Below, piece by piece: positions 431 through 38,884 of a stretch of DNA of 64,000 nt (within the stretch, counting starts at the first letter, position 1; every line of letters starts with the position of its first letter). The notes beneath the pieces were generated by a model that was given only the letters and a program-made list of their open reading frames with translations, ran no database searches and was not told the DNA's origin. Position numbers and translations under genes: made by a program. The stretch comes from Heliopora coerulea (lineage: Eukaryota; Cnidaria; Anthozoa; Scleralcyonacea; Helioporidae). The DNA is taken from positions 463,501 through 527,500 of the forward strand of contig JASJOG010000168.1 of assembly GCA_030142905.1 (NCBI GenBank). The letters run 5' to 3'.

Positions 431-2170
431 CTACTTGCTGTTTGATAAGAAATTTAAAATGAACTTAAAACATCGTAGTATTTCGTGGTTTGGCCTCTTC
501 GTTTCTCCTTGCTCCAACATTTCTTCAATCAATTTTTGAAAGTGGTGAGGCGAAAAGTTTTTCCAGTTTTTCTTTTTAAAATTACCTCTTGTTATCCGAA
601 CGACATCTTCGATTTCTCCACGTCCCTCGTTCCAACCAAAGATCTTTTCTACCTCCTCGTTATGAGAATTAAGAGCATCATGGTCGACGATAAGACAGTG
701 CGGAATGTCAAGATCTTTGCAAATTTTCACCGCTTTGTCAATATTTCCCTTCCCCGATAAAGGTAATACACTGCAGGTACGCACAAGCTCTCTACACTCT
801 TCCAGATCCTTTTGTTCTTGAGCTTGTAACGCCACCTTAAGTAGGTCTTCTTCTCCGCCCTCTCCTTCGTCAATCAACTTCAACATGGCCTCACAGAAGC
901 GACGGTCCGTATCTCCCTCCACCCAAATTACTCGTCGCGTGAGGAATAACTCTCGCGTTTCTGCCCCACCAACGAAGCGCGATTCAATCTCTGACAAACT
1001 CGACAATACACAGTGGATCTCGCAACAACCACTAGTATATCGTCGGAAACGAAAAATCTGGTCAATTGGTGAACCATGCAACATATCAGGAGCATGCGTA
1101 GTGACGATGATCACTTTATTTGGCTTGGAACTTTCCTGGGATAGAATTCTTCGAAGACGTCTAATCTGAAGGGGATGCATACCTCTTGTCGGCTCATCCA
1201 GCAATACCGTTTCGGTCTGCTCATTAACCAATACAAAGGCTAGAATGAAAGCGTAAAAGAACCCCTGAGGCAAGTCGTCTTTCTGGTAACGTACTCCCTT
1301 CAGCATCTCTTCAATTTTGATAGATTGACACTCGTATTTCACTGTAATCTTTTCATCTCCAGTAAGCTTGTGGAATAGCTTTGTGGCTTGCTCCCATTTA
1401 TCTTCGAACCCAGGCTTTGCATCGCTTGACTCGTGTGGATAAATGGCTTTCAGGAGCTTCAGAATCACGGTAGCCTGCGTTTCGTCTGTTCTTTGGATTT
1501 TTGAAGGCGGGCCTAGGCCGTGATCTTTACCACTGTCTCCCAGGAAATCGTTATCTGTTTCTTCTAAATTTGAAGGATCAGGGAACCAATTCAACAAATC
1601 GCTCGTTCGTGAACCTTTACACCTATCTTCAAACAGACCTATCTTTGCTTTCTTGGCATCAAATGGTTGGATTACAGCGATAATCTGATCGTTAAATCTC
1701 ACAAAAAGAAATCTAGAAATAGCTGATCCAGGGATGCGCTTAAACCCAATAACCAGCGTCAAGGTACCTGAGGTGATCTTCATGCGGTCCTGCAAAACCT
1801 TGTGCAGCTTTTTCGGAATTATCAGAATACCATCTAGAAACCAGAGCTTGAATTCGGGATGGGTTCTTGCAAAACTGTTCTCATGATAGCGAGGCAGTTT
1901 TTCCCAGCTTTTAAATTCTAAGACGTATTCGCAAGCTACGACAGATTCCCTCGAGCCGTCACACACTCGAAGATTTTCGACTGGCCTTCTACATCCGAAA
2001 TTACTGGCAAAACAAACTACCTTTAGTACAGTGCTTTTGCCACTCGCGTTTTCGCCAACCAAAGTGAAGAGCTTGCTAGGATTCTCTGATTTCTCTCGTT
2101 TCGCGGAGAAGTCCATGATTTGCTTCTTGTCGAATATTTTGTAATTATCGATTACAAGACGTCGCAACAT
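431..2170 (-). CDS. OLD-family-like ATPase/TOPRIM protein
   Basis: A predicted 579-residue protein joins an ABC/SMC-type ATPase to a C-terminal TOPRIM domain, the layout of OLD-family nucleases. Visible motifs: Walker A GENASGKST (residues 39-47), Walker B VLLDEPTRGMHP (about 322-333), a switch histidine in VTTHAPD (about 356-362), the TOPRIM glutamate in WVEGDTDRRF (about 416-425) and the acidic motif IVDHDA (about 494-499). I start at the ATG at 2168-2170. The frame stays open a further 41 codons upstream, but that stretch is hydrophobic and unrelated, and a 3' splice site (ctgttatag) lies just before the ATG, so a 5' intron is likely. No intron interrupts the domain part. OLD proteins are best known from bacteria and phages, where some act in defence. 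Animal intron-poor copies suggest an old transfer or a selfish origin. A DNA-cleaving role is inference only. Confidence 0.75.
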   Translation of the reverse strand: MLRRLVIDNYKIFDKKQIMDFSAKREKSENPSKLFTLVGENASGKSTVLKVVCFASNFGCRRPVENLRVCDGSRESVVACEYVLEFKSWEKLPRYHENSFARTHPEFKLWFLDGILIIPKKLHKVLQDRMKITSGTLTLVIGFKRIPGSAISRFLFVRFNDQIIAVIQPFDAKKAKIGLFEDRCKGSRTSDLLNWFPDPSNLEETDNDFLGDSGKDHGLGPPSKIQRTDETQATVILKLLKAIYPHESSDAKPGFEDKWEQATKLFHKLTGDEKITVKYECQSIKIEEMLKGVRYQKDDLPQGFFYAFILAFVLVNEQTETVLLDEPTRGMHPLQIRRLRRILSQESSKPNKVIIVTTHAPDMLHGSPIDQIFRFRRYTSGCCEIHCVLSSLSEIESRFVGGAETRELFLTRRVIWVEGDTDRRFCEAMLKLIDEGEGGEEDLLKVALQAQEQKDLEECRELVRTCSVLPLSGKGNIDKAVKICKDLDIPHCLIVDHDALNSHNEEVEKIFGWNEGRGEIEDVVRITRGNFKKKNWKNFSPHHFQKLIEEMLEQGETKRPNHEILRCFKFILNFLSNSK

Positions 2171-2373
2171 AGCTGCTGCTATAACAGATAACAGATGAAA
2201 TATTAGATGAAAGATTATTACAGTTAGGTAATGTGCCAAGTCACTACAAGTCTTACGTTGAATGTGAATGCTATAAATTAAATGATTCCTCAATTTTCAT
2301 ATGTATCTGGGTCTTAGAAGCTGAGGCTTCAAAAATATATGAAAATGGATTTTCCGTACACCGTTAAACTACA

Positions 2374-8301: not shown

Positions 8302-8733
8302 TCACGACTCCTGCGCTTCCATCTGAAGATGGAAAGCACTTCCATCTGCAGATTGAGATGCTTTCTTAAACTTGTTTACCATTCGCCACAATAGTATTGG
8401 GGGAGGTTCATTAGTCTCTCCTACTAACGTTGTGAGAACTGTCAAGTGCTCATCTTCTGTCTTCTTCTCTCCGAAATCCTCTTCGATTTTCCGTTTAAAA
8501 CTATCCCAGTCGTCACCGATGTCGCTTTCAACTGTTTCCCAAAACTCGTCCGCTCTTCCCGTTAAAAGTACTGGTGCCTGAGTTACCATGTGAGCTTTTG
8601 TCCACTTCTTGGCCTTACGAATTTTCTCCATCGAGCGAAGCCTGATCTTCGGCTCAGCTACGCCGTCGTACGTCGGCAAAGTAATCTTTAAACTTTCTGC
8701 TCGCGAGACCGTTCCTTGATCAGTGTCTGACAT
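8302..8733 (-). pseudogene. Ty3/gypsy gag N-terminal remnant
   Basis: This frame matches the N-terminal part of the gag region of the gypsy element at 39.7-40.7 kb and sits at the same place relative to its LTR. It keeps its initiating ATG (8731-8733) and lacks the two early stops seen in copy B, but it is cut off after about 125 gag codons and ends in an unrelated tail. The rest of the element was removed by a deletion whose left end is at about 8300. Confidence 0.8.
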
Positions 8734-8768
8734 CTTCTCTGTTTGTCCAATCCCACCGCTGCCACCAG

Positions 8769-8916
8769 TGTAAAACAGTAATGTGAAAAATACTTTATTA
8801 GTGATTTAGTTTTACCACCGACTCCTTCTTTCCTGTTCCCTCCAAAACCAACAACAACAAAGAAAACCCTCTTTTGTCACAAGGTACAGTCCAAATATGG
8901 ACTGTGCGGTAATACA
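8769..8916 (-). repeat. Ty3/gypsy LTR, copy A (5' LTR of a deleted element)
   Basis: The 148-bp LTR begins TGTAAAACAG and ends in ATACA, closely matching 40719-40866. It is followed by ACTG and the same unique flank as in copy B, so the insertion predates the duplication. Just inside it (8746-8768) is a primer-binding site matching the 3' end of a tRNA-Leu (ccaccgctgccacca on the plus strand). Confidence 0.85.
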
Positions 8917-9580
8917 ACTGCAAGTCAACCTTCCAGTTATTATGGAGTTCAATGGTGGTGACTGGGGCATGTTGCGGTTTCACGTACATCTCAAAAACCT
9001 CATGTATTTCATGTTAAAAATTTAAATATGTTAGATCAACTGATTTAAGTCTAAATTGGCCGTTCCTGTCTCGTCAGAGATCCCAACGAATCTTTCCTTT
9101 CTAACGAGCCTATGCATAAACTATTTAAATTGCACACATTAGGCAAGAAGTCCATACATAGGAGTTATCAAGGTTAATAAAAAGCGCGCACGGAAATCTG
9201 GAAATTTCAAATATCGTGCTTATTGAAGGCCCACGGCCGTTTACCACGGAGAACATTTGATATTATAAGCTTAAGTGATCGGAAAACGAATTTATTGCTT
9301 GTAAAACGGCCCAAAACACACAACTTAACACTATTTCAAACCTTTTTTATCAACCTTCCTACCTTTATGGGAAAACGTGACTCCCCAACTTCCTCTGTCA
9401 CTGCAGTTAATAGAAGGACAATGAAAGGTCGAAATATTTACTCTGAACGTACAATGTTTCAAAGAATGCTATTAAGGAGTTCTTATCAAATGGATCCCTT
9501 CAAATAAATCTTTTTATCCCTAATTTTAAATCAATCAATATCTGTCCCTTCTTATCAAAAATTCTGATCGTCCGCCAAGT
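8917..9580. other. Noncoding duplicon sequence, copy A
   Basis: It matches 40867-41542 at high identity with small indels. I see no supported gene in it. Confidence 0.5.
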
Positions 9581-9960
9581 GAATGACTGCATGAATGAAT
9601 CAACGCACCAACGAAATAACGGAACGACGGACAAACAAACTACGAACTCATCGGATGTACGCTCGACTGACGAATGCACAAACCAAAGAACGAACGATCA
9701 AATGGTTCGACAGACGGGCGAATTCATAGATGCAAGGACAAATGTATGGACGGAAGGACAAACAAATAAACAGAGGGATGCATGAAGACATGGACGGATG
9801 GACGGAGTAACCAACAAAGGGACGAAAGAGACAACGGATGGACTGGGAAATGGATGAATGAACAAACACACAGACGATTTGACGGACGAACGCATAGACG
9901 CAAGGACAAATGTATGGACGGAAAGACGAACAAATAAACGGTGGGAATAACGAACGAACG
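9581..9960. repeat. Degenerate GACGGA/CGAA minisatellite, copy A
   Basis: A purine-rich tract of 4-base-register repeats (gaatgaat, aacgaacg, ggacggatgg, aaggacaaatgtatggacgg). The block with aaggacaaatgtatggacgg occurs twice, about 180 bp apart (about 9733 and 9901). All long frames here (Ser/Val/Phe/His-rich on the minus strand, Thr/Asn/Asp-rich on the plus) are products of the repeat. The homologous tract is at 41543-41945. Confidence 0.85.
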
Positions 9961-11143
9961 AACCGATCTTTAATTTCTCATTTGGCACTTCCTGCAAGTT
10001 AAGAGTTCTCTCGCAAGCAAACTTTTAATGTTATTTTCAAAATTCAATTTTACACCATTTTACAGTACAACCAGAGAAGTGTTCGATTTCACATAGTAGT
10101 AATTGCCTCATCTTGCCTCACTCTGACAAAGCTCAAACATTTTAAAACCGAGATAGGCATCGCAAATAAGTTAAACATTAGTTCATAGTAACTGTTTACT
10201 GTTAAGTTTTAATTGACATGTAAAAACTAAATGGTGAAAGGTAGGACGTTATTTATCGTGTCGTGAATGAACCAGTGAATTCAAACGAACGGTGTCCAAG
10301 CCCCTTCAGCCGCGATATCCTGCTAGTATTACGTTACTACTTACTGCTAAATCACCGGTCCCCCTTATACATCTGCTGAATACAACTACCAGAATGCCTT
10401 TCGAAATCTCGTTTGTAATGTTAAGCGGAGCAATTGTCTGTCCATTCGCTTTGGGAATTCAATGTTTGCATGAAAATGAAAATACCGCAAAGTATTCTGG
10501 TACTTTTATTCAGCTGACGTAATAAGACGAACTGACTATTTATCCTAAATCTCAGCCCAGTGACCAACAACACTCAGTATGTCGCTTTTAATAGAATGCA
10601 CACTTTAGATAAAATCCACCTATTTCAGAATGTCCTTTTTACTATCCCTAATCAAAAATTCCATAAGCCAGATTTCATATGTAAACCACGTGTGAATCAC
10701 ATGCTAATCCTACGTGTACAGCAAGTGAAATTAAGTTGTATGGGAAACGTGAACGTGTCAAAAAATCAAAAATGTGAAAAATCACATGTGAAATACTTCC
10801 ACATCTGAAATTGAAACATATTTCATTCTTTTAATTTTATGTGTCATCACATGAAATCACACCAGTGAAATCAACAATTCTTTTTATACAATGCAGAGTG
10901 TTCTAAGTAACTGGGCTTAGACACTTTGGGTAAATTTACAATATTAAAACTCGTATTTGAAGTGGTGACCGCAAAACTTTGTTCTCGCCAAAATAATTTA
11001 AACCTAAAATGTTAACTGCTGACTGGTTCGAGTGAAAAGCCGACGAGCAGTTTTCCATCGTATATTCTCCCTCCCCAATATTACTTTCAGGAGCTAGTGC
11101 GTATTATCTTCAGTGCTTTCTGATGTGATTCAAGAACAGACGT
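9961..11143. other. Noncoding 3' flank of NLR copy A
   Basis: It matches 41946-43117. The stretch 10660-10870 is rich in short CACATG/CACGTG and tcacatgaaatcac words arranged in both orientations, suggesting a decayed short inverted-repeat element. No gene is supported. Confidence 0.5.
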
Positions 11144-14100
11144 TTAATCTTCCATTATATGTTGTTTCTTCCTAACATTACGATCACTGTTCGCCGTCAT
11201 TTTGTGTTCGTCACCAAATAATTTCAACCTAATGTTCACTGCTTTCTCATCTGACCCAAGAGCAGACTTGTAGTCTTTCATTCCATGTTGTGTCAACCCA
11301 ATCTGACGATAACTGTCAGCCGTCAGTTCGTGTTCGTCACCAAATAATTTCAACCTAATGTTCAGTGCTTTCTCATGTGACCCAAGAGTAGACTTGCAGT
11401 CTTTCATGTTATGTTGTGTCACCCCAATCTCACCATAACTGTCAGCTGTCAGTTCGTGTTCGTCACCAAATAATTTCAACCTAATGTTCAGTGCTTTCTC
11501 ATGTGACTCAAGAGCAGACTTGTAGTCTTTCATGTTATTTTGTGTCACCCCAATCTGACGATAACTGTCAGCCGTCATTTCGTGTTCGTCACCAAATAAT
11601 TTCAACCTAATGTTCAGCGCTTTCTCATGTGACTCAAGAGCAGACTTGTAGTCTTTCATGTTATGTTGTGTCACCCCAATCTCACCATAACTGTCAGCCG
11701 TCAGTTCGTGTTCGTCACCAAATAATTTCAACCTAATGTTCAGTGCTTTCTCATCTGACTCAAGAGCAGACTTGTAGTCTTTCATGTTATTTTGTGTCAC
11801 CCCAATCTCACGATAACTGTCAGCCGTCAGTTCGTGTTCGTCACCAAATAATTTCAACCTAATGTTCAGTGCTTTCTCATGTGACTCAAGAGCAGACTTG
11901 TAGTCTTTCATGTTATGTTGTGTCACCCCAATCTCACCATAACTGTCAGCCGTCAGTTCGTGTTCGTCACCAAATAATTTCAACCTAATGTTCAGTGCTT
12001 TCTCATGTGACTCAAGAGCAGACTTGCAGTCTTTCATTTCATGTTGTGTCAACCCAATCTCACGATAACTGTCAGCCGTCAGTTCGTGTTCGTCACCAAA
12101 TAATTTCAACCTAATGTTCAGTGCTTTCTCATGTGACTCAAGAGCAGACTTGTAGTCTTCCATATTATATTGTGTCACCCCAATCTCACGATAACTGTCA
12201 GCCGTCAGTTTGTGTTCGTCACCAAATAATTTCAACCTAATGTTCAGTGCTTTCTCATGTGACTCAAGAGCAGACTTGTAGTCTTTCATGTTATGTTGTG
12301 TCACCCCAATCTGACGATAACTGTCAGCCGTCATTTCGTGTTCGTCACCAAATAATTTCAACCTAATGTTCAGTGCTTTCTCATGTGACTCAAGAGCAGA
12401 CTTGTAGTCTTTCATGTTATTTTGTGTCACCCCAATCTGACGATAACTGTCAGCCGTCAGTTTGTGTTCGTCACCAAATAATTTCAACCTAATGTTCAGC
12501 GCTTTCTCATGTGACTCAAGAGCAGACTTGTAGTCTTTCATGTTATGTTGTGTCACCCCAATCTCACCATAACTGTCAGCCGTCAGTTCGTGTTCGTCAC
12601 CAAATAATTTCAACCTAATGTTCAGTGCTTTCTCATATGACTCAAGAGCAGACTTGTAGTCTTTCATGTTATTTTGTGTCACCCCAATCTCACGATAACT
12701 GTCAGCCGTCAGTTCGTGTTCGTCACCAAATAATTTCAACCTAATGTTCAGTGCTTTCTCATGTGACTCAAGAGCAGACTTGTAGTCTTTCATCATATAT
12801 TGTGTCGTCCCAATATCATGATAAATGCCAGCCGTCAGTTCGTGTTCGTCACCAAATAATTTCAACCTAATGTTCACTGCTTTCTCATGTGACTCAAGAG
12901 CAGACTTGTAGTCTTTCATTGCATGTTGTGTCACCCCAATCTCACGATAACTGTCAGCCGTCAGTTCGTGTTCGTCACCAAATAATTTCAACCTAATGTT
13001 CAGTGCTTTCTCATCTGACTCAAGAGCAGACTTGTAGTCTTTCATTTCATGTTGTGTCACCCCAATCTCACGATAACTGTCAGCCGTCAGTTCGTGTTCG
13101 TCACCAAATAATTTCAACCTAATGTTCACTGCTTTCTCATGTGACTCAAGAGCAGACTTGTAGTCTTCCATATTATATTGTGTCACCCCAATCTCATGAT
13201 AACTGTCAGCCGTCAGTTCGTGTTCGTCACCAAATAATTTCAACCTAATGTTCAGTGCTTTCTCATGTGATTGAAGAGCTTCAGTCAAGTGTTTCGCTAC
13301 ATATTTTGCTTTTCCCATATCATAGTACATCGTTGCTGTTTCTGGATGCTGCTCACCGCATTTTTTTACTATTAAGTCAAGAGCACGCTGGAAGCAGTCA
13401 CAAGCTTGTTCATATTTGTTTACTGTTTTGAGGGTATTTATAACATAACGGAGAAATGAAAGTAATGTGTGGTCACTCATAAATTTTGCTTCAATTTCCT
13501 CAACGATTTCAAGCAGCATGTCACCCAGTTTCTGAACAGTTTCGTTCAGAAAACAATTTTTAGCCAAGTGGTTAATCACCAAAATAAATGCTAAAATAAG
13601 TGGCTGGTTAGAAGACGGGAGGTCGTCACGTTGCTTCATCGAACCTTTTATCGTTTCAGCCGTTGTATCCTCAGTTAAGGCACGAAGTAGAAAATCTAAG
13701 TCTCTTCTTTCTTTGCATCCTTGCAAAGCCAGTTGATAAAACTTTCTAAATTTTTCCACATTTTTACATTTAAAGTAGACAGCAAGAATAAGGAGAGATA
13801 AAACTTTAAGCACTGTGCTCCCAGCGCTGTTGCCCAAAAGAGAAACACCGTTTTCGAGAATTTCACTTCCCTCGCATGCCTTCCCATTTATAAGAAAAAA
13901 AATACCATAGTAGCACAATCGCTTTCCTTTCACGTCGTCGGCAATTACTGACGGATTATTTGCTTCGATTTCTGCAGCGTCTTTAAGCAGCTGTAAAGTA
14001 TTTCCTCTTTTACCCCAGGTGATCTGAGCAAACGCCTTACCTCCAAGCAGCCGACTGATAACTGCATCATTATGGTGTCCATTTGCTTGCTTTATTGCTG

Positions 14101-15426
14101 AATCGTAAACTTCATCAAAATTAAAGCAATAATCATAGTACCAAACGGTGTCTAAGAACAGTTCTGCGTCTGAAAGACTGTCAAAAACTTCATTGCATAC
14201 TGTGTCATTCGAAACACCTTCAATTAGACTTTGAAATATATTTTCCTGCTCTTGATAAAACTGGCCAAAAGCAGATAACGAATTTCCTGCCAAAAACTCC
14301 TCATTCAATTCTTTGAACATCGTCACATAGTAATTAAGGAAACGAGTTTTTGCTTTCAAAGCAATTTCTTTCATTACATTTTCACCTTTTTCCACTGCGA
14401 AGGCTCTCAACAGTGGATGAATTGAGAAAGAACGGCTTTCTGGGCTTGAATCAATCAAACACTTTTTTTCAATTCTTTGCAAAGTTTGCTTTCCTAAAAG
14501 TTTTCCTCCCCCAATGATTTCCACAGCAGCGTCTACGTAAAATTTCTCGCCCACGAATACCGACAGTGAAACAAATGCCTCTCGCTCTCTTGGAGAAAGC
14601 CTTTCGAAAGAAGATTCAAATATCATTTTTAATCGTAAGTCACTTGGTAAATCGGGATTTTCCAACACCTCTAGGATGCTAAGCGAAGAATTACGGAAGT
14701 CCTTAAGAAATTCACTCGGTTTCTCGCCCTCACGAATTAACGAACACAACAACTTAATGGCTAGTGGTACACATCCACAAATTCGCGTTATTTCTATGCA
14801 GTCGCTGCCACTTGATATTGGAAGGAATACCCGAACGAGTTCTTGTGAGGATTTTTTCTCCAGTGGAACAATCTTGATAGATTTATGAACATCATGTTGA
14901 AACTTTAACTCGAGGAACTCAAATCTCGTTCTGGCGATGCATAAGAAAGTTATGTTTTTGCAACGCGCTAAAATCTCTTCAAATAAGTCAGAAACCTCTT
15001 GCCTGACGTGCGGACCTCCACTTTCGAGTAAATCATCAGCATTATCAAGAACTAAAAAAACTTCTGATGACATTTTGGAAAAAATCGTGCAAAATTTATC
15101 AGCTGCTTCTGGTGTTGTAAGCGGCTGTTTGTTGTTTGTATGTGATGAACTATTGGGGAAAAAGTTTAGAAGTTTAGCAACTACGTCATTTGTCGACCTT
15201 ACATTTCTTAAGGAAAAGAAATAAACTGGTAACCCACGACATTTAAGACGATGTCCTGCTGCAATGGCTACTGACGTTTTTCCAAATCCTGGTGGTCCCC
15301 AAACCGTCACCAGTCGCGTTGATTTCGATGTCATAAGGCGAACGACTTCCTCGCACTCACTATCTCGACCAGTGAAATAAGGAACCATGAAGGGTAAGTA
15401 CGGCTCGGGCAAGACATCTTTAACTC
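11144..15426 (-). CDS. NLR copy A, exon 4: NB-ARC plus TPR array
   Basis: The exon starts after the 3' splice site gatctttctag and completes a Gly codon. NB-ARC motifs (joined numbering): P-loop WGPPGFGKTS (about 416-425), kinase-2 FLVLDNADDLLE (about 497-508), RNBS-B-like CIARTRF (about 536-542), GLPL-like CGCVPLAIKLL (about 590-600) and the MHD-position motif FSIHPLLRAFA (about 707-717). All key residues of a STAND NTPase are present. A helical linker of about 370 residues follows, then one degenerate TPR and 16 near-identical 42-residue repeats plus a partial 17th. The stop codon is TAA at 11144-11146. The exon is far larger than the others and uninterrupted, as is usual for repeat arrays kept by recombination. 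Confidence 0.85.
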
Positions 15427-18400
15427 CTAGAAAGATCGAAATGGTACATTCAAGAAACATCATCAAGCAAACCTTAATATGTATCCCATGCATAATTTGT
15501 AAAAACTTACTAGTTGTCGAATGCAAACACTACAATCTGATTGGCTACGCTACATGCTATCTTCACTTATGTGGGATAGATATCGACTAGGAACCAGTAA
15601 TATAATAAGGTCGAGTTTTTCATTCAAAAAAATGTTTAAGGCCTCGTTTACATGAGACCGGTACGAAGTCAGACCGGCACAAATGTGTTGGGGAATTGCC
15701 TCCTCTGTCGTGTCGCCCAACAATCCCGAAAATCACAAAACTCACTCAGCAATTTTTACGGTTTATTAATGTCCGATGACCACTCCCGAGTTCATTGACT
15801 TTATATAAAACAGCTCAGGTTTTACTGACGTCACATGCTATCTAATTAACTCGTTTAACTGTGGTGTCAAGTGTCTTTCAACACCTTGCACTTAACAAAA
15901 CATCTGCTATTAATGTTCTAAATATGTGAGGATACAGTCGACTCCCGATAACTCAAACCTTCAAGGGAAATTGAAAAAGGTTCGAGTTATCGGAAGTTCG
16001 AGTTATCGGGAGTTCGAGTTATCGGGAGCTGAGAACAAACTTCCGGAAATAAGGAAAAAATGGTGTTGACTGTTTTTCTATTCATACAGAGCACATTTTA
16101 ATCAATCTTAATTACAAAAGGAATATCAAAGCCCAGCAAAATATCTTTACGAAAGCCATCAAGTCGGACACAGAAGTAAATAGTAATATTTAATAAAGTT
16201 CTAAAGTTCTATTTAATAAAGTTCTAACGTACTACGTCCTCTGATTGGTTAATGCTTGAATATTATTACACCTTGTAACTATATATACTTAGGCTTTAGG
16301 CAGTATGTAAATTATTCTCTGATGATGTTGTGATTAATACAACGAAACGTTAGAACTTTATTAAATATTACTATTTACTTCTGTGTCCGACTCGATGGCT
16401 TTCGTAAAGATATTTTGCTGGGCTTTGATATTCCTTTTGAGATTACGTTTTCCGCCTGGTCAATCCATAGCTGAAATCTTAATTACAGTATAGAGAAGTC
16501 GAGTGAAATTGGAGCAATATATTTGTTAATCATTACTGTATAAATCAGAACGTAACGTGAAACAAAAAAAAGCAAATTCAACCTGGATTCCTTTATCAAA
16601 GGATATCATGTCTACCAAGGAGCTTCACGAGGAGCTAAACGCTGTACCAGAGTCAAACAATTTTGTCGACAAGTACGCAGTTTGTGTGCAACGTTATGGC
16701 GAAGTTATAGTACATTTAATGAAAGGCAAATCAGGACGTTTTGCGAAGACAATTTTCTATTTTTTGCAGGCCGATCAGAAGAACGAATGTACTGTGGTGG
16801 TGACCGGCAAGGCAGTTAACCTTGGAGATGGGGAAGGAATGCAAGTGCCATGCACACTGCACTTCAAGGGACACAAGAAATTCATTGACGTTTTGAAGGA
16901 GTATGGCTTTATGAACATACAGTGCACTGTAATTAAGTGTATTCTAAATCAGAGAAACCTGAACTGGACTGACATGTTTGGTGTAGTATAAAAAGACTTC
17001 ATAACAAATTCAATGTTTAAAACTATGATACACTGTTTTGTTTTGTTTTGTCAGGTATTGACAGACATGGTTCGAGTTATCGAGGGTAAAATTATATAGA
17101 AAAGGACCTTAAGGGAAACAAAAATTGTTTCGAGTTAGCGGGAGGTTCGAGTTATCGAGGGTTCGAGTTACCGAGGGTAAAATTACTGTAAATGTTTTTC
17201 AAAAATCAAGGGGAAATCAAATTTGGTTCGACTTAGCGGGAGGTTCGAGTTAGCGACGATTCGAGTGACCGGGAGTCGACTGTAATCCTCAACAAATGCG
17301 AGTTTCACTTTACATGAGACCGGTCCGAAAAATTAGCTCGGACCCGTCTCACTCATATCAGGTGGTAGATCGACACGAATGTGACGAACAAGGTAAGCAT
17401 TGTTGCTGGGAATTAATGAAAACTCTGAATGTGGTCAGAAATATTTGCAATAAAGTTGCTTTAACTTCATTTCGGTTTCATGTAAACACGTTAAAAAATC
17501 TTCAATTTGGTAGCAGTCTAAATTCATACCGGTTTCATGTAAACGGAGCCTAACCCTATTTTTTTGGAATGAACTTGGTTAACTAACGAAAATGAACTAA
17601 CAAGGAAACGGCATTCTCGGGTCAAAAAGCATTTTATTTCGAGCTTTCAACGACTAGTCTGTTGCCTTTGATTTTGCCTTCTTCTCGTCCAAGGCCACAG
17701 ACTGGTCGTCGAAAGCTCAAACTAAAATAATTTTTGTCAGAGAACGCCGTTTCCTTATTTGGCCATTCCTTTACCAGATCGCGCGATTCATTTATATCTT
17801 AAAAAGTAATTTCTATTTAAATAATTAGATTATTTGCTCTCAAATTCCTTTAGATGATAATTCACTTGGGCTTCGCCCTTGAAAACAATCACGCCATTTA
17901 CGTAATATTTTATGATATATACGGCAAATTATCAATTGAAATTATTAAAAAATTTCATTTCGATCGGGCGGTGTTAGATGGCGACTAGATCCCTAACTAC
18001 AACTAAGTATAATTGAATTTAACCAACTACTTATACGACCAAACCAATCATTTAATTTGGATATCAAAAAAATCTGTATACTATTAAAAATGTAATATTA
18101 AGAACAGAAAAGCGTGATATCCATTCCATTCCATGACAGCTCGGTAGCAAAACCTTCTTTCCACAGCAATATTTGAGTTTAGGCTATGATAACATGTGAT
18201 TGTTACTTCTTAAGTAATCATGGGCGTTGCGAGAGATGGAACCTGCAAGCAACACCCCTGATGTAAATTTACCAGTTTCTTATCTAAGAAATCTTTTCTT
18301 ACCAATTTCTTACAAACAACGTTTCTCACTAATCACTTATCTAAAATCCCTCAGGTAACCGTACTGCAGTTCCAAAGTCATCTGTCAGGAAAAGCCTACT

Positions 18401-21400
18401 CAACACCGTTTCTCTTGCCCCAAACAATTTGTCCCTAGCTTCGCTAATTGCGTTCGTTCTTTGACGGGGAGGGTCAGAAATTTTGAAATCATGATCTAAT
18501 AGTCAGTAATTAAGCTACCCGTGTTACTCGTGTCGTGAAGAGGGAACTTTTCACCACAATGGCTTTTCGCTCTATCATCCTAGAACTGGATTTTTCGTGT
18601 AACGGTATTGGGAAAACACAGCCATAGTTCCGGCTTTTCAGTTAATAGGTCACTAATTTATATTTAACAGTCAGATAACGAGCCCAACAATTTCGTGAGG
18701 TGAAACCAGGAACTGAGACCGAATAATCTAAGTGTTTTATCTTTTCCTTCTTTCTTCCTTTCTTTCTGTTTTTTTTTTAATTATTTCATGATGCATAGAC
18801 GTTTAGATTTACAGTATTACAAAAATCTACATCTAATAAACGATGTTTCTCACAAAGCTAACTTACCTTCAAATGTTTCTGGTATATAGAACTTCGTCAA
18901 AACATGTTCCACGTACGACGCTGACGCTGCTGCACCAAATTTGTCCCATTCTGACACTTCACTGCTGCCGCCCGACCAGCTTGTGATCGACTTACACAAT
19001 ATCCATGGAATCCCAGATTTTTGGCAAATCGTATATAGCCCTGTAGTCAAGTTAGTAAAATATCAGTAGGAGGGTGAAAAAATTCCCAACAAAACGGTAC
19101 CGAAGCGAAAGTAAAGTTTCTCAGTCACGCGTGGCACGCGAATCCACAGAAAGCGCGTGACCTATTCGAGCACTGGCACCCTTCAAATTATCTTCACAAC
19201 TTTTAATGTCTGTTTAAACACGTCGAGAGAACATCCAGGAAAGTGTAATTTACATAAAGTCTAGATTAACCAAGGACAGTGACCATTACGACCTTCAATT
19301 CTTTGCCGTCGCAAGTCACACTTCTGGCCCTGTGCCGCCACAGACTCGTCCAAATACGAAGAGGAGTTCATGAAAATTACCCATTTCCGGTCCTTATCCG
19401 ACTTTTTAACTTTACTCTGCCTAACGCCACACAATTTTACTCTGGCTAACGTCGGACGATTTTACTCGTCAAGGGGAGACATCTCGGATAGAAAAGACTT
19501 AATGGTTCTTTCAAAGGAAACAAACTTCTTGTTCGGTTCACATTCACGTAATATTTAAAGGCCGACAACGAGGACTAGACCGCCTTTTCAAATACGAGAA
19601 ATTCGTTCTAGTCCAAATTGGAGGACCTTTGAATGACTTCTCAGAATCAATTAGTGTATTGGCACAATGAATTAGTCTATTACTGATGAGTGTATCGATT
19701 GTGTGAAATTATATTTTAAGACCAAGGACTTGAAGCATTATTTCCAGTCCAAGGACTGGAAAAAACAATTCAAGATCCCTGCCCACTACTTCCATGGTAT
19801 TTCAAGTTCCCTCTTGTGATGGAATTTACTGCGTTTCATTGATTGATATACTCATGAATTATTAATGATTTTGAGAATCTTAGTTTAACCTTTTGTCTTT
19901 ATAGTTCAGCTAAGATTTAAGAGCAGGATTTTAAGGGTTCATTCAACGTAAAATAGTCTGCAAATTAACATACGTATTTAATTACTCTTTTAATTCATTG
20001 CGTATTTAATGACTCATATAGAAAATTAATTGCATCTTTTTCCTATAGCATACCTTCACCTTCCATTTCTCCCCCTAATGCTTCGGGGTAGCGTTTTTTC
20101 AGCTCCGCCACTCGTTCTTCGTTTTCAACATGTTGTGGGCCACTAATAACCAGACCAACGTGAACTTTGGGAACAAATACTTTACTTGGACCAATCCACC
20201 CAACCTTTCCGCCATCAAACAATCGCGTCAGTCTTGAATTGCATTCAGTTGTGGGACCAAGGCTATTTATGCTGCCGTCAGGAGTCACACGAGATGGTCC
20301 ATACAAACCTACTTGAGATGATACGAGAACATCACCCAGATCATGCTTCTCTCTCATCATACCAAAACACCCACCAAGACCCACAATAGCTTTGGGGTTC
20401 AATTTCTTAACGGCTTCTGAACACGTTGCCTGCACTCCGGCAACACCAATTGTTCCCTTAAAGGACTTCAGCAACACAGTTTTATTCTTCCCAATTTCTC
20501 CAAAATAAACTGGTCCCAGGTCACTACCAGTATCTGTCACCCTGGGATTATTTAATATTGCGTATGCTGCACAAAAGTCGGTATCCTCAGCTGTCAGCAG
20601 CAGAACATCAACTGGTTCATCTTTGATATCAGACCAATCAACTTTATTGGGTTTGATGTCTTTAAAATTTATATTTCTGGCAGCAGGAGGGTGTGTTTTG
20701 TCAGCCCCATGGTCTGTAGAATCACTACTAGTTTTATCTGCAAAAAGAATTACATGAATTAGTTTTTTTCCAAAATTACCAAAAATTTTATTTTTTTATT
20801 GTTTGTAATTATTTTTTTTTATAAGGCAAGACATTGGTTCTTCTACAAGAAATAAAATGAGACATGGTGTTTAACCTTAAGGCCACACCAGAATAGTGAG
20901 TACCATTGCTCACTAGGACAAAATTAACACGATGTCCCCCCATTGCAAGTTTGAAATACAATTACACTAAAATAATGCCAATGACGATATGGCAACATTA
21001 ACGAGATCAAATGGCAATAGTCTGACCAATGTTCTTATATTTGTTTAACATATATAAAACTTTTCACAACATCATAATTTGGCACTCACTATTCACTAAT
21101 TCATTGAGTGCTCTAGGGCAACTGTCCCCCTGGCACCATTCCAAAGTCATTGCTTTGATATGGATGTCGTGACACAGTTTTAACCCCTCACTGACAGTTC
21201 AGAAAAACTTCAATTGGTTTAAAAATGTTGAACAGGTTCACAGTTCAATATTTTTAACTCAGTTTAATATTTTTTCCTCAACTGGCTCAATTCTGTCAGG
21301 TACATAAATCATTCTATTCTACTTAAGTCTCTTAAATATTCACACATACCTTCAATAGCAAGTTTCTTCATTGACTGAGTGGATTTATCAAGCTTACTTT

Positions 21401-21611
21401 TTAATTCATCACCTTTTTGCATTGGCTCATCAACAGACATTTCAGTTTCTCTGCTTGCTCCTTTCAACTCCTCACTGACTGACATTTCTTCCAGTGGCAT
21501 AATTAGTTTATCAATTTGCCTTTTGAACCCAGCCACTTCTTCCTTAACTTCATCAGTAGATGTTGCAATTCCCTCACCTGTTTCCTCCACCTTAGCCAGC
21601 TCTACACTCAT
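11144..21611 (-). CDS. NLR-type gene, copy A: phosphorylase-NB-ARC-TPR (four exons)
   Basis: Joining 21611-21350, 20737-20054, 19040-18867 and 15426-11144 gives about 1800 residues with no stop. All three introns are GT-AG in phase 1, and the split Gly/Asp codons fit exactly. Order: charged helical N-terminus (1-87), PNP/UDP phosphorylase domain (about 130-365), NB-ARC NTPase (about 385-715), helical linker, then TPRs (about 1090-1800). It is predicted to be a cytosolic STAND receptor: NTP-driven oligomerisation would follow ligand sensing by the TPRs. Phosphorylase-NB-ARC-TPR proteins are known from fungi, and related NLR-like proteins occur in cnidarians. The intron between exons 3 and 4 holds three nested transposons. 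The start is the ATG at 21609-21611, which follows a good 3' splice site (ttgtgtgccag), so a further 5' exon is likely. Ligand and effector output are unknown. Confidence 0.8.
11147..13270 (-). repeat. 126-bp coding tandem array (TPR), copy A
   Basis: Sixteen full units and one partial unit of 126 bp encode 42-residue TPRs of the kinesin-light-chain type, with the frame ALNIRLKLFGDEH then helix A. Most of the unit is invariant. Differences concentrate at unit positions 21-22 (RE, RQ, GE, HE, HD), 25 and 28-29 (HN, NN, HE, YN, HA, YM, HG), with a few at 2, 14, 15, 31, 33 and 40. Units 5-7 and 12-14 have the same helix-A variants in the same order, which suggests a past duplication of seven units. 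The last unit is degenerate (TANSDRNVRKKQ). Confidence 0.9.
16117..16474. mobile_element. Fold-back element with hammerhead-like core, copy A only
   Basis: A 358-bp insertion absent from copy B is flanked by a 13-bp duplication aatcttaattaca (16104-16116 and 16475-16487). Its arms (about 16118-16228 and 16347-16441) are inverted repeats of roughly 95-100 bp. A long, variable-type target duplication and a self-complementary body suggest reverse-transcription-based insertion, as for Penelope-like or terminal-repeat miniature elements. The family assignment is inference. Confidence 0.7.
16229..16350 (+). ncRNA. Hammerhead-ribozyme-like motif
   Basis: The plus strand has CTGATGA (16319-16325), a GTTGT/ACAAC hairpin and GAAA directly after it. 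The following CGTTAGAAC pairs with GTTCTAACG in the left arm of the fold-back element, and the left strand continues TA, giving a GUA-type cleavage triplet at 16229-16231. Stems II and III and the core are thus present. An extra T precedes stem II, and I could not see a good stem I, so activity is doubtful. Confidence 0.3.
16608..16991 (+). CDS. HIRAN-like domain ORF inside the pogo-like element
   Basis: A 127-residue protein starting at the ATG at 16608; the frame is open upstream from 16557 but without an ATG. It shows a pattern I recognise from HIRAN-like proteins frequent in cnidarians: DKYAVCVQRYGEVIVH, then CTVVVTGKAVNLGDGEGMQ, then VPCTLHFKGHKKFIDVLKEYG. In HLTF the HIRAN domain binds DNA ends, so a DNA-binding role is possible. 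It lies between the TIRs of a pogo/Tigger-like element, inside an intron of the NLR gene and on the opposite strand. In copy B it is frameshifted by an 11-bp deletion. The family call rests on visual similarity only. Confidence 0.55.
   Translation: MSTKELHEELNAVPESNNFVDKYAVCVQRYGEVIVHLMKGKSGRFAKTIFYFLQADQKNECTVVVTGKAVNLGDGEGMQVPCTLHFKGHKKFIDVLKEYGFMNIQCTVIKCILNQRNLNWTDMFGVV
17602..17756. repeat. Short fold-back element, copy A
   Basis: Arms of about 67 bp (aaggaaacggcattctc..., reversed from 17756) flank a short spacer, including paired gagctttcaacgactagtct and its near-inverse. It matches 49810-49963 in copy B. It is a hairpin-type MITE in the NLR intron. Confidence 0.75.
17757..18866. other. 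Intron sequence of NLR copy A
   Basis: AT-rich intron sequence between exon 3 and the fold-back element, conserved with 49964-51073. A pyrimidine tract (ttcctttctttc) lies at about 18740-18775. No gene is supported. Confidence 0.5.
18867..19040 (-). CDS. NLR copy A, exon 3: phosphorylase C-terminal part
   Basis: A 174-nt phase-1 exon between acceptor ttgactacag and donor gtaagt. It encodes the end of the PNP/UDP domain: GLYTICQKSGIPW, then KSITSWSGG, then FGAAASASYVEHVL. The last part matches the usual A-A-A-x-A-x-Y helix. In active MTAN/PNP-family members the I-x-D-x motif at KSITSW carries the catalytic Asp. Here it is Ser (about residue 336), also in copy B. Confidence 0.85.
19041..20053. 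other. Intron of NLR copy A
   Basis: Noncoding. The segment about 19073-19494 is replaced in copy B by a short AT-rich tract. Copy B also has about 60 bp more near 51480-51540 (around a ctagtcc repeat), so A probably lost that part by recombination between the direct repeats. Confidence 0.55.
20054..20737 (-). CDS. NLR copy A, exon 2: PNP/UDP phosphorylase domain
   Basis: A 684-nt exon between acceptor ttctttttgcag and donor gtatgc, phase 1 on both sides. It encodes VDVLLLTAEDTDFCAAYAIL, the glycine loop AIVGLGGCFGM, the LGDVLVSSQV strand, and GGEMEGEG at the end. The last is the ribose-binding E-M-E motif of nucleoside phosphorylases and MTA/SAH nucleosidases. The exon reads through without a stop. 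It would form the N-terminal effector-type domain of the NLR, as in fungal PNP-type NLRs. Confidence 0.85.
20738..21349. other. Intron of NLR copy A
   Basis: AT-rich intron beginning gtatgtgtg and ending ttctttttgcag on the minus strand; matches 52653-53269. Nothing else seen. Confidence 0.6.
21350..21611 (-). CDS. NLR copy A, exon 1: charged helical N-terminus
   Basis: It encodes about 87 residues rich in Glu, Lys, Met and Ser (for example EEVAGFKRQIDKL and SKLDKSTQSMKKLA), probably a short coiled coil. No death-fold domain is seen. The donor is gtatgtgtg. The first ATG (21609-21611) follows a credible acceptor, so either it is the start after a 5'UTR intron or the exon continues from an unseen coding exon. 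Confidence 0.65.
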
Positions 21612-23049
21612 TCTCCTGGCACACAAATGCAGACCACATATAATATTTCCTCTTTTGGTTCCAGTTAACTCTCACAAAACAAGCAGTCTACTAAAGACTT
21701 TATTTCTGCTATTTTCAACCAGCTGTTGACCTTTGATGCCACACAAATATGACAGTTTATCTTACAACAAAATCAAGGGCCACTGTCTTCACATTCAAGT
21801 CTTTCTCAAGGCTGCCAAATTCTGCATAAGAGATAAATGACAACTGGTAAATTTCTTACAAATGCCAACTTAGGCTGGTAAAATAGGTGTGAAGCATGTG
21901 CTCTACTATGTTATATCTACTTGGTTGAGGTAGCAGAATCAGTAAATTGTCCACAAAGTAAAATGCCTAAACAATAAAATAAAGTTCCATCTGCACGTTT
22001 TTCATTATCTATTCTTGAACAACTTATAAGCCATTCTTACACAGGGATGGTGGCAGAGGGATGGCAGAGGGGGCTACAGCCCTCTTGTCGGGGAACCTTA
22101 GCTCCCCTGTCAGGAAAAAGTTAACAGACTGAATTCATCAGGGAATTTTCACTGATGATAACACATTTATGTTGTACAAACTATGGCCAATTGATATTGA
22201 TTTAGCCAAGAAGGATAATAGACTCTTCTCTTCATGTCAAATCTAAAACTAAACTGTTTCTAGTCAGTTGTTGAGATTATTCTTGTAAAAAATAACATGA
22301 TGTTAAAGATGGCATGGTCCTCATCTCTCTAGTTTTGGACCCCCTAACAGGGACATTAGCCCCTGCATTGGGGAATTCCTGCCACCACCCTTTTCCTTAA
22401 TGTGGAACACCAGAGCTGTAAGTGCTCTTTACATTTATAAAGTGTTACTGTTTACTCATTGCAATTAGTAATTTTGGTGAGTAAATAATTCCTTTTTCCA
22501 GAAAGGAATGGAAACAGCAATTAAGTAGAAAACCAAGGAAACATTCCTTTTGTAATGGAGCAAACTTCAAATTCCATTCAGTTTAAAAAACATAACGCAG
22601 GGCCACCGAAGCAAGAGATCTTCCAATTTCATCACATTCATGACCAAATCTGCTGATCTCCTGCTCAACATGTGAAATATTCTGCTTGCTTTCAAACTAT
22701 ATGGACAATAAAAATTCACTCTAGTTTTTTTTACAAATCATGGGACATCTGTTTATTTACCACCATGCACCGTGGCAACACCCTGGACATAAGATGAACA
22801 TTATGTGATTTCATCCACATTCAGGAGGTTTTCCAAGCACTAACAACCATTCCAAGAAAACATGACCAAGATAACTGTCGTTATTTTACTGTAAGTCAAA
22901 ACAACTTCACATGGGGGGCAAATTGAAAGATTAATCTGCCAATTAGTCCCTTCACAATCACAGAAAGTATGATAATTCGTACAAATTCCGGATAAACGTT
23001 TGTTATAGCTTGTAACAACTTTTTCTTGCCACACCCTGGATGTTTTTGT
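21612..23049. other. 5' intron or flank of NLR copy A
   Basis: No supported gene. It matches 53532-54840 in copy B, except that B has a hAT-type insertion (54032-54384) and lacks about 22550-22980. Confidence 0.5.
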
Positions 23050-23880
23050 ATCCGAACGCCTTAATTAGTCTCTGAGATACGATTTATCACGTTCGCTGTG
23101 ACGGTTAACAACTTAAAAGATATTATGCTGGCCCGAACGTGATTGGAACGGAACGAATGATGCCGTGCATTGAAATGTGATTGAATTTCTATCAGATTAT
23201 CACTTCGAAGTACACTTGTTATTGCCCTATGACTTCCCGCGGAATAGTTCACCCAAAAGAAAGTATCTACAACGTTTCACCTTGAATCGATGAACAGAGT
23301 ATTCGTTGCAAAGGCGACTTCCGAAGCAACCTCAGTACATTAAACATAACAAACATTAACAGAAGATGATCGTAATGCCCAGCGAATGTAAAACTACGGT
23401 GTGTTGTCACTTTCGCATAACTTGTACGTCTGTAACACGACAGAACCACTGATCTGAATAGGGACAGAACCAGTTGACATTTGTAATCTTCTCATGCCAT
23501 ATAAATCTTATTTGTGTTGCTCAATAACTCGAGCAGTCTCCAGGATCTAATCGGTTCAGAGGTTACGGGTTACATTCCGGTCAGAAGCTTAGAAAATATA
23601 AATTTACTTGTGATATACACGGGGTTAAATGGCGTCTACGATGGAACCACACTATGAAGACTTGCCAAGTTAACCAGGTCTCTCAAACGGCTGGGTACAT
23701 GGGATGATCAGGAGCTTGCTTTAATTTCGGTTGATCGTTGATCGGTAGAAGAAAGCAAAAGCTGATGGTTAGCAGAGATTTCCCTCCTTATTCAAGCGAT
23801 TCCTCGAATAAAATGAGTAAATGACTTCTCCAAATTTTCCTTACGTCAATGATTGACTTGCAGGTGAACACCCTGAATCG
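23050..23880 (-). promoter_or_regulatory. Beta repeat with possible NLR first exon, copy A
   Basis: This stretch matches the beta repeats at 3.7-4.4 and 29.6-30.3 kb and the equivalent place in copy B (54850-55733). On the minus strand, ggttaacttg is followed by a donor-like site: gtaagt in copy B (intron start 55523), gcaagt here (intron start 23665). A noncoding first exon upstream of 23666 spliced to the acceptor at about 21616 is plausible. The duplication shared with copy B ends at about 23880. Confidence 0.35.
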
Positions 23881-26446
23881 TAACGTGATTTCAGACCAAG
23901 GACGGGAATTTGTGAACCAGGTAGGCTACTATTTGTTTAATTTTTACAATAACCACAAACTTGACCAAATTAATTACTTCATAATATAATTTTGTTTTTT
24001 AGGTAAATGAGGCATTATTCTCTCTTTTTAAAATCAAACACCGTATTACTTCTGCATACCACGCCCAGTCAAATGGTCTAGATGAAAGGACTAACCAGAC
24101 TTTAAAAAGGTAATTGAAAAATGATTACATTACATCATAAATTTGCTTTAAATAATTCATATTGTTATTAACCAATCTTCATAACTATTTTTTTTTTCTT
24201 TGAAGAACACTTAAAAAAGTAATGGATGGTAAAGATGACAGATGGGATGAATATGTGGAAGGGGCACTCTTTGCAATCAATACAAATCAGTCAACCTCAA
24301 CTAAATATAGTCCCTTTTATTTAATGTTTGGAAGAAATCCAAGATTCCCTTTTGAAGTGGAAAAAAGTGAAACAAACCTCACTGATTTAGATGACATTGC
24401 ACAGCTGATGGAAGATTTAAGTAATGAAGTAGTCATCAGGGAACATGTTGAGCAGATGTCACAGATGAAGGATACCATATTTCCTATAGTTGATTCCAAT
24501 ATTAAAAAAGCCTAAGAAAAGCAAAAAGCACAATACCAAAAAAAGAAGGGTCAACCGGTGTGCCAATTCAAAGTTGGAGAAGCTGTCTTGGTTCGTAACA
24601 TCCTGCAGAAAACAAAGAAAGGGCACAAACTGGAAGATCAATGGATTGGTCCATATGAAATTATAGAGGTGAATGCTGATAGGGGAGTCTGCAAGTTGCT
24701 CAATCTTTCAACAAAAAAGATAGTGAGACAGCAGTCAATAAAAAACTTGAAACCATACAAACAGGAAGACAATGTAGAGATCCCACAAGAAGCAACTTCA
24801 TCTATTAATGCACAGCAGCCAGATGTACAAGTACAGACAGAATCTAATCGAAGAGAAGGAAAGAATTCTGATGCAATGATGGCAGAAGCAAAAAAGACAG
24901 AAGCAATGATGGCAGAAGCAAAGAAGACAGAAGCAATAATGGCAGAAGCAAAAAAGACAGAAGCAATGATGGCAGAAGCAAAAAAGACAGAAACAAACAA
25001 GACAGAAGCAAAGAAGACAGAAACAATAATGGCAGAAGACAGAAGCAATAATGGCAGAAGCAGAGCAAACAGCATCAAAACAGTCAACAAAGAAGCCAGA
25101 AGCAAAAAAGGATCAGTCAAAATCTTTTACTTCACAGGAATGTGAAATATTTGACAGAAAAATTAAAAACATGCAAAAGCAGGATATCTTACCACATATT
25201 TCATGCATTAAGAATGAGCTGACCAGAAAATTAAGTAACAAAGAAAAATGCTTGAGGTATGAGATTTTCAGCTCTGGTTTTAGCAAGAATGCCCCAAGCC
25301 TTGAGAAGAAAGACTTATCTTTTAATGTCTTTTTTGGAGGTTTTACTGAAGATCAGTTGGAATTCATTCTTGGAGAGCTGCACAAATGGTTTCCAACTTC
25401 TAATACAGATTTCCTAACAAAAGTTGTGTTTCCTGAAGCCCTTATATTCCTCTGTCAGGCCATTTTAAAAATCTCTTATCATGAAGCAGAGAATTACCTG
25501 GAACATGGAGGAAAATACCATGTTAAAGAAATTATGAAGAACTGGAAGAAACCCAACAAGCGATGTAAGCCAACACGAACCAACGTACCATCAAAGAAAT
25601 CCAAACCTGACCATACAATTGAAAAAACTGTTGAAGAAGAAGAGTGCAAGTTTGTGGAAGAAAGAAAGGCAAGTGACAGTTCAATACACAAGATGAAGAC
25701 ACCAAACTACCAATTGCATGAAGATGATCATGACATAATAATGAAAAATGGTTTACTTAGAGACACTCACATTGGTAAGGCACAAAATTTATTGAAGCAG
25801 CAATTCCCAAATATACAAGGTCTACAACCAACTACACTTGGTATTGTTCAACAGTTCGATGTTATGAGAGCAAAATTCATCCAAATTCTTCACACTGGTG
25901 CAAACCACTGGATATGTATCAGTAACATTTTTTGCAGCCAAATGAACACTGTTAAACTCTATGATAACATGTACTCAGGGGTTAATAGTTTCACTAAGAA
26001 ACAAATTGTGGGTATTCTACACCTTCAGTCACAAGATGTTATAGAAATCTCTATTGAGCCAGTCACACAGCAGACAAATGGATATGACTGTGGTGTATTT
26101 TCCATTGCTTTTGCTGCTGCTTTGTGTTATGGACAGGATCCAAGCATGGTGACTTTTTCAGAAGATGCAACATCAGGAGTCACTTGTGGAATTGTTTCAC
26201 CCAAGGCCGAGTGGATATGTTTTCATCTGTCCCAAGAAATCCTGGAAATGTATCACCTGACAAGAAGGTTCTAGTACCAATCTACTGTACCTGTCACCTT
26301 CCATATGTTAGCCAAGAGGATGACATGGTTGAATGTGCCAGTTGCTGCAAGTGGTTTCACAAAAAGTGCTGTGAAGTCCCAGAGATGTTTTTCAAGAGAA
26401 AAAATATGAAATGGAAATGCAGTCCACAATGCACTCTGGAGTAGTA
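23874..26446 (+). pseudogene. Ginger-like integrase with Ulp1 protease and PHD finger, 5'-truncated
   Basis: Exon-like pieces encode a retroviral-type integrase core: VISDQGREFVNQ (second Asp), HAQSNGLDERTNQTLK (Glu position) and YSPFYLMFGRNPRFP. Introns at 23921-24002 and 24110-24205 have GT-AG ends. A GPY/F-type module follows (DQWIGPYEIIEV), then a repetitive linker, a C48/Ulp1-like cysteine protease (HTGANHWICIS; QQTNGYDCGVFSIAFA with the nucleophile Cys) and a PHD finger (CTCHLPY to CSPQC). This order fits Ginger1-type DNA transposons and related GIN genes. The zinc-binding domain and the first Asp are missing at the 5' end. A stop at 24513-24515, a frameshift near 25035 and another near 26260 break the frame. 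Confidence 0.8.
24868..25070 (+). repeat. 30-bp coding tandem repeat in the Ginger-like linker
   Basis: About five to six units encoding variants of the decapeptide AMMAEAKKTE lie between the GPY/F module and the protease. The last units are shortened (gcagaagacagaagc lacks 8 bases), which causes the frameshift into the downstream protease frame. Confidence 0.85.
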
Positions 26447-37989: not shown

Positions 37990-38125
37990 TTGAGATGTGA
38001 CGTTTCAGTTTCTCAAATGTTTCTTGAGCCTTGTCGTTCCAGTCGAAGTGTTTACTATCTGGGTTCTTCTCCAGGAGATGGTTGAGAGGTTTGGCAATGG
38101 TAGCGTAATTTGGAATAAATCTTCG

Positions 38126-38880: not shown

Positions 38881-38884
38881 TAAT

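Follow-up and report, generated by a model that had tools for sequence, protein, structure and literature searches.

Near-identical TPR units with diversified groove positions in a tandem family of candidate STAND-type receptors of Heliopora coerulea

We analyzed a window of the anthozoan Heliopora coerulea genome (the whole stretch of 64,000 nucleotides, positions 463501-527500 of the contig here called C77), in which a gene denoted A carries near-identical TPR units that differ at the positions of the putative ligand groove. We read gene A, with a probability of about 0.74, as belonging to an anthozoan family of tandem genes for intracellular STAND-type (NLR-like) receptors, in which exchange would homogenise and shuffle the TPR units and selection would change the groove. 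The sequences support, for an animal, the combination of concerted evolution and diversifying selection on this groove that is known from fungal NLRs; diversifying selection is suggested because groove pN exceeds pS in the C77 family.

Architecture of gene A

In the gene model, which has three domains in the order PNP_UDP - STAND NTPase - TPR array, gene A appears to be the large exon (Table 1). The PNP_UDP exons lie about 3.4 kb and 4.6 kb upstream of the NTPase-TPR frame. Judged by eye, GT-AG sites in the sequence make exons 1 and 2 as well as exons 2 and 3 joinable in frame, the latter at the acceptor TTTCTAG/GAGTT, and a single transcript would join both PNP exons to the NTPase-TPR exon. 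Exon 1 matched PF01048 (E = 3.2 × 10−8, 33.7 bits, cut-off 25.1) and MTA/SAH nucleosidase chains in the PDB (best E = 8.5 × 10−7); the PF01048 match was over the cut-off both in gene A and in the second copy in the window, copy B. The open frame of exon 2, between acceptor CTACAG and donor GAAG/GTAAG, is conserved in the two copies, and relatives of this exon are present in 15 loci on contigs C174 and C42. In gene A and copy B, the final motif of exon 2 is ITSW, and in these 15 loci it is ITNW; nucleosidases presumably carry a catalytic Asp at this site, where A and B have Ser and the C174 and C42 loci Asn. In immune cell death, PNP_UDP domains have been described as acting on ATP (PMC12881547, citing Rousset et al. 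2023).

Table 1 Features of gene A and copy B in the window.
Feature	Positions	Strand	Details
Open frame with the gene A repeats	11144-15526	-	1460 codons
Gene A exon 1	20054-20795	-	N-terminal part of PNP_UDP_1 domain; donor GAAG/GTATG; 5' end provisional; open frame 20046-20795
Gene A exon 2	18867-19040	-	C-terminal part of PNP_UDP-like domain; acceptor CTACAG, donor GAAG/GTAAG
Gene A exon 3	11144-15426	-	STAND NTPase, helical middle region, TPR array, stop; acceptor TTTCTAG/GAGTT
Gene A NTPase core	14942-15322	-	Pfam AAA_22 match PF13401, residues 69-195; P-loop GPPGFGKTS, LDNADDLL
Gene A 126-bp tandem array	11109-13279		TRF; 17.2 copies, 94% match, score 3768
Gene A TPR array	11195-13336	-	17 complete units of 42 residues (126 bp), read from 13336 down; variable at canonical 5, 6, 9, 12, 13 (and 24)
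Gene A degenerate C-terminal part unit	11147-11194	-	directly before the stop
Copy B, whole gene	43086-52737	-	same layout as gene A
Copy B exon 1 (PNP_UDP_1)	51969-52737	-	open frame 51961-52737; PF01048 27.7 bits, cut-off 25.1; 5' end provisional; C77:515461-516201 in the PNP match list
Copy B exon 2	51074-51247	-	conserved open frame and splice sites as in gene A
Copy B NTPase part of exon 3	46696-48029	-	ORF 46696-48129, ending at the reading-frame break
Copy B TPR array	43086-45874	-	TRF; 22 units found, three late units with stops
Segmental duplication, about 15 kb	8345-23873 and 40298-55731		pieces 92-96% identical, about 32 kb apart, holding both gene copies

Among the Pfam profiles, AAA_22 (1.2 × 10−7) and nSTAND1 (8.2 × 10−7) matched gene A over the cut-off and NACHT under it (24.9 bits, cut-off 26.7); the gene A locus was absent from the matches listed for PF00931 in the genome profile search. 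The P-loop residues are invariant across an alignment of 34 sequences. With the gene A model as a Foldseek query, the STAND-TPR structure 6mfv (1.2 × 10−11), Apaf-1 (6.4 × 10−9) and CED-4 were retrieved, with low whole-model TM-scores (0.22-0.23). Judged from its sequence, gene A thus appears to have the layout of a STAND/NLR-like receptor, namely a P-loop NTPase between an N-terminal effector-type domain and C-terminal repeats.

An alignment-based AlphaFold model of the NTPase and six units (mean pLDDT 84.5) resembles kinesin light chain and Podospora 42-residue TPR-like structures, and also LGN, in Foldseek searches; in this predicted model, the two-helix unit of 42 residues is stacked as a superhelix. 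A single-sequence AlphaFold model of ten units was poor (mean pLDDT 49.8), and the alignment-based model was used instead. The Pfam profile TPR_NPHP3 matched the TPR part of gene A over its cut-off (152 bits, cut-off 100); NPHP3_N matched copy B only, below the cut-off (23.1 bits, cut-off 24.8).

The TPR array of gene A

The 126-bp array is read in frame within a single minus-strand open frame, and its 17 complete units are followed by a degenerate tail that runs up to the stop. The original prediction had placed near-identical TPR units at 11147-13270, and such units were found there, but this span omits about half of the diverged first unit. Most of the 42 positions had been expected never to vary, and 27 of them are indeed constant in units 2-17. 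Positions 21, 22, 25, 28 and 29 of the predicted unit, which correspond to canonical TPR positions 5, 6, 9, 12 and 13, take 3, 3, 3, 3 and 5 residues, respectively, with variants recurring in the mosaic order that had been described. The further claim that variation is confined to groove-facing positions holds for these five but not for the array as a whole, where ten further positions vary, with three residues at position 24 (12 H, 3 D, 1 Y) and two residues each at positions 2, 3, 15, 17, 20, 22, 28, 40 and 41. Variation at the third codon base is limited to codons 6, 13, 27 and 42 in units 2-17.

High internal conservation has been defined as repeats more than 85% identical over at least 100 residues (PMC4986451). 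The mean pairwise identity of the gene A units, calculated by a measure other than that paper's own program, is 0.85 over the 17 units, which would place the array at the borderline of the fungal-type regime.

Exchange of repeat units within and between genes

Blocks of units have been duplicated and exchanged between genes. In the strings of units, LGAHE and RQVHN blocks are repeated in copy B, RQVNN and RQVHN alternate in gene C77_345k, and the block HSVHQ YFVHQ occurs three times in C174_117k. Of the 112 distinct DNA units in the C77 family, 25 are common to at least two genes. Identity between genes is patchy: when gene A is compared with C77_313k, 10 of 2142 bases are different in the array and 64 of 2091 in the NTPase part (Fisher p = 2.5 × 10−11), and 57 of the 81 differences between C77_370k and C77_533k fall within the final 291 NTPase bases and units 1 to 3 of the array. 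Between genes, array pS ranges from 0.002 to 0.071, mostly similar to NTPase pS (0.017-0.069), and groove pN reaches 0.36; unit order and content differ between paralogues. The predicted internal homogenisation is thus evident from block repeats and patchy identity, both within and between genes.

The gene family in the genome

A search of the genome (430 Mb in 769 contigs) with the NTPase exon identified nine tandem genes on C77, that is, copy B and eight genes without a stop over the query, as well as one broken copy on C37, fifteen genes on C174, one at 50 kb of C42, one on C750, and two genes plus a further broken one on C287. With A and B counted, close relatives number 29 in the genome, and the full-length NTPase matches on C174, C42, C287 and C750 are 53-55% identical. 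Going by coordinates, every one of the nine C77 genes has a PNP exon upstream, as do the C37 copy, 14 of the 15 C174 genes and the C42 and C750 genes; the fifteenth C174 gene starts at the contig end, and no PNP exon near the C287 genes was among the matches listed genome-wide. Of 202 PNP exon candidates, 150 were scored and all matched, so that the genome contains at least 150.

A structural TPR protein of the kinesin light chain or nephrocystin-3 kind, expanded by chance and with groove differences that tune binding to several constant host partners instead of recognising variable non-self, is the likeliest alternative, and we consider it unlikely. It accords with the TPR_NPHP3 match, with the annotation of some anthozoan relatives as Nephrocystin-3 and with the structural matches to LGN and kinesin light chain, both solved with host peptides. 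However, the combination of PNP_UDP and STAND NTPase, the expansion to nine tandem genes and 29 close relatives, and the unit order and content that change between paralogues are features that we judge typical of receptors under conflict.

Variation at groove codons

In HOP co-crystals, peptide contacts involve TPR positions 2, 5, 6, 9, 12 and 13, and the most variable TPR positions are 2, 5, 9, 12, 13, 33 and 34 (Magliery and Regan, PMC1261162). Both position sets are independent of the present data, though they were consulted after the array entropies were known; groove facing was assigned from these published positions. The prediction that the variable helix-A positions line the ligand groove agrees with this assignment, the five named positions being five of the six HOP contacts (PMC1261162).

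The C77 family was analyzed as ten arrays (nine on C77 and one on C37), of which the inner units were counted: stop-bearing units (8 in C77, 6 in C174 and C42) were removed first, followed by the outermost remaining unit at either end of each array. The number of units detected per array ranges from 6 to 22 in these ten paralogous arrays. With recombination, which is present, ignored in pN/pS and in the change counts, pN was 0.237 at the six contact codons and 0.032 at the other codons, and pS was 0.089 in the contact set, 0.041 in the rest and 0.048 overall. The ratio of groove pN to array pS was 4.98 (bootstrap 3.91-6.46) and exceeded 1 in each of the ten arrays; none of 20,000 random six-position sets reached the contact-set pN. 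The hypervariable set (2, 5, 9, 12, 13, 33, 34) performed worse than the contact set, with ratios of 3.42 in C77 (2.73-4.49; 95 of 20,000 permutations), 0.94 in C174 and C42, 2.00 in C287 and 0.49 in C750; positions 33 and 34 are nearly fixed in these arrays. Synonymous sites were not equally variable at the five predicted codons, where the C77 family had pN 0.281 and pS 0.087 (array pS 0.048). In gene A alone, the ratio for these five positions was 10.5.

Gene diversity at codon bases 1, 2 and 3 was 0.408, 0.275 and 0.152 in the five groove codons, compared to 0.008, 0.035 and 0.026 in the helix-A codons in between (4, 7, 8, 10, 11 and 14). Thus, despite homogenisation, variation is high at the groove codons, and it is low a few bases away. 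Among C77 unit pairs at most two bases apart, 14 groove amino-acid changes were observed compared to 6.0 expected (p = 0.0017), and among pairs one base apart, 8 compared to 3.3 expected (p = 0.013). However, minimal distinct codon changes did not differ significantly between groove (33 N, 9 S) and rest (72 N, 28 S) in C77 (Fisher p = 0.53), nor in C174 and C42 (p = 0.87), C287 (p = 0.46) or C750 (p = 0.27); when only codons seen at least twice were counted, C750 alone separated groove from rest (p = 0.005). As these counts show no significant groove excess, the excess is one of frequency and kept diversity, and a surplus of independent events at the groove is not proven. The amino-acid excess at ligand-contact codons appears indicative of selection at an interaction face, with the codon-change counts contrary to it.

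Other arrays in the genome and in other species

The arrays on C174, C42, C287 and C750 were read to 12 units at most (1500 bases downstream per locus). Groove pN/pS was 2.56 in C287 (above 1 in both arrays), 1.34 (1.02-1.85) in C174 and C42 (above 1 in 11 of 16 arrays and not above in 5), and 0.63 in C750, the least homogenised array (pS 0.49). Groove changes in unit pairs at most two bases apart numbered 15 in C174 and C42 (6.8 expected, p = 0.0024) and 2 in C287 (1.1 expected); in pairs one base apart, they numbered 5 (2.9 expected, p = 0.16) and 1 (0.6 expected), respectively.

Arrays built from a different unit were drawn from 1750 first-look TPR_12 candidates, of which 114 were scored and eight stretches taken; units less than 55% like the consensus were to be dropped, and none fell below this in any of the eight arrays. 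In these arrays (seven LNNLG and one YNNLG, on other contigs), the pooled ratio was 2.12 (1.53-3.34; 92 of 20,000 permutations), with individual ratios from 0.80, on C50, to 6.78 (7 of 8 above 1). Their most variable positions, when pooled, are 31, 9, 2, 12 and 24, and positions 5 and 6 are mostly Asn. One different-unit array, L047 (C234:235801-243200), has an open frame of 3977 aa with 58 units read at a mean identity of 0.88, and is most variable at positions 9, 31, 2 and 24.

Among 121 proteins (gene A and the 120 relatives listed), 21 without a sufficient lag-42 repeat were dropped; in 99 of the remaining 100 arrays (gene A and 99 relatives), groove entropy exceeded that of the rest, the sole array in the opposite direction being P0116. 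When gene A and arrays with like consensus units were excluded, the same held for 42 of 43 arrays. Position 24, which lies in helix B and serves packing in canonical TPRs, was among the six most variable in 81 of the 100 arrays. Nine near-identical relatives of 1321 aa, considered as possible alleles, had no clear groove excess when compared with one another (0.038 vs 0.024). The best match among the 120 relatives listed is 54% identical; 11 of them are named, from the anthozoans Montipora, Oculina, Stylophora and Paramuricea, at 37-42% identity. A BLAST comparison of the two PNP exons with the 120 listed relatives, many of whose records may be single exons, returned nothing at E 1e-3 or 1e-2.

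It is rather improbable that relaxed constraint is the whole explanation, the groove being a free surface of a recently homogenised array, with the rest held by the TPR fold and without selection for change. The codon-change counts in C77 and the ratios near or under 1 in C174 and C42 (1.34), C50 (0.80) and C750 (0.63) point in this direction. Free sites, however, ought not to exceed pS, yet groove pN/pS is 5.0 in C77, 2.6 in C287 and 2.1 in the eight further arrays, and the C77 positions outside the contact set, taken as a whole, are under pS (pN 0.032, pS 0.048); for C77, this explanation is disfavoured. Collapse or polishing error is a very improbable source of the pattern: near-identical 126-bp units are difficult to assemble, and the reading frame of copy B is broken and contains stops, but errors would show no preference for amino-acid differences at a few codons, and the groove excess over other codons is also found in other arrays of the genome and in protein records of other species.

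Relation to known systems

In fungal NLRs with high internal conservation, near-identical repeats are exchanged, and in a model based on KLC2 the selected TPR sites map to the concave side (Dyrka et al. 2014, PMC4986451). Talaromyces marneffei has a PNP_UDP/NACHT/TPR protein, and Podospora has sesB-like/NB-ARC/TPR and PNP_UDP/NACHT/ANK genes (PMC4986451). Like these NLRs, gene A combines a STAND NTPase with C-terminal near-identical, exchanged repeats (TPR, compared to TPR or ANK in fungi) and, like several of them, has an N-terminal PNP_UDP domain; selected TPR sites on the concave side would be a further shared feature (PMC4986451). Unlike them, the gene A family is found in an animal, with nine genes arranged in tandem on a single contig, and an allorecognition role is not among its known features. 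Concerted evolution and diversifying selection on a small number of positions in each repeat would also be shared with the Podospora HNWD genes het-d and het-e, which are heterokaryon incompatibility genes with WD40 repeats (PMC12222747), whereas gene A has TPRs. The predicted likeness to fungal NWD genes is therefore right in kind, the nearer match being the fungal PNP_UDP/NACHT/TPR type (PMC4986451). The near-identical TPR-like repeats of Podospora (PDB 4y6c/4y6w) are a structural match to the gene A model from another organism. By architecture and apparent groove selection, gene A belongs with the fungal-type NLRs.

Tandem expansion and TPR sensors are already known in corals from NB-ARC/NACHT receptors with TPR (PMC10236652, PMC12314368). 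In the available portions of these two papers, the second of which deals with TPR-CHAT genes and TPR length, we found no residue-level diversification for such receptors, and neither 'phosphorylase' nor 'PNP' occurs in the main text of PMC10236652. Of 94 Nematostella repeat proteins, about 40% have been reported to have Ka/Ks greater than 1, under parameters that left out most Pfam domains (PMC2805694), and diversifying selection has been tested in Montipora, but not by repeat position (PMC6385260). We found no statement of groove-specific diversification in cnidarian TPR receptors in our searches of open-licence papers, and one may nevertheless exist.

Proposed mechanism and implications

The mechanism that we propose starts from the observed architecture, in-frame splice sites, homogenisation, between-gene exchange and amino-acid excess at TPR ligand-contact codons. 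The TPR superhelix would be the sensor. Its units would be held near-identical by unequal exchange and gene conversion, which would also shuffle them, both inside a gene and from one gene to another, and selection would keep altering the helix-A residues of the inner groove, such that each gene would present a different strip of contact residues. The groove would bind a variable foreign or self ligand, binding would switch the NTPase to an oligomer, and the PNP_UDP domain would then act as the effector.

More tentatively, the family could serve as a germline-encoded library of modular TPR receptors for animals that lack adaptive immunity, with a recognition code read along the superhelix; the system would have arisen in parallel with fungal NLRs or be shared with them. 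In such a library, exchange among tens of tandem genes would reshuffle units of fixed scaffold, each with five to six groove residues free to change, and the targets would be pathogens, symbionts or colony self/non-self. To our knowledge, little is known of the residues that set the specificity of coral immune-type receptors, for which the C77 family supplies candidate receptors and predicted specificity-deciding residues. A large animal family in such a regime would show that the fungal strategy works in animals too, which would be noteworthy because internal conservation was reported for only 0.8% of metazoan ANK, TPR and WD repeats (Dyrka et al., PMC4986451).

Copy B and other features of the window

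In copy B, the reading frame breaks near 46.7 kb and reading moves on to the ORF 43472-46537; owing to this break and the stops in three units, copy B looks like a pseudogene, presumably of recent loss, or like a gene holding assembly errors. Its groove pattern is still that of gene A (ratio 12.7). Both copies are adjoined by 16-bp tandem repeats (15980-16028, 17129-17178 and 49336-49385) with the cores GTTCGAGTTA or TTCGAGTTAC. Elsewhere in the window, ORFs at 36021-40539 (minus strand) matched an integrase p58 C-terminal domain and a zinc knuckle and probably belong to a retroelement, and an ORF at 24558-26274 (plus strand) with a Ulp1/C48-like peptidase match, preceded by a 15/30-bp tandem repeat, is perhaps part of a mobile element. 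A 620-aa ORF at 431-2293 (minus strand) matched AAA_21 and OLD-like TOPRIM, the latter a nuclease type of bacterial defence.
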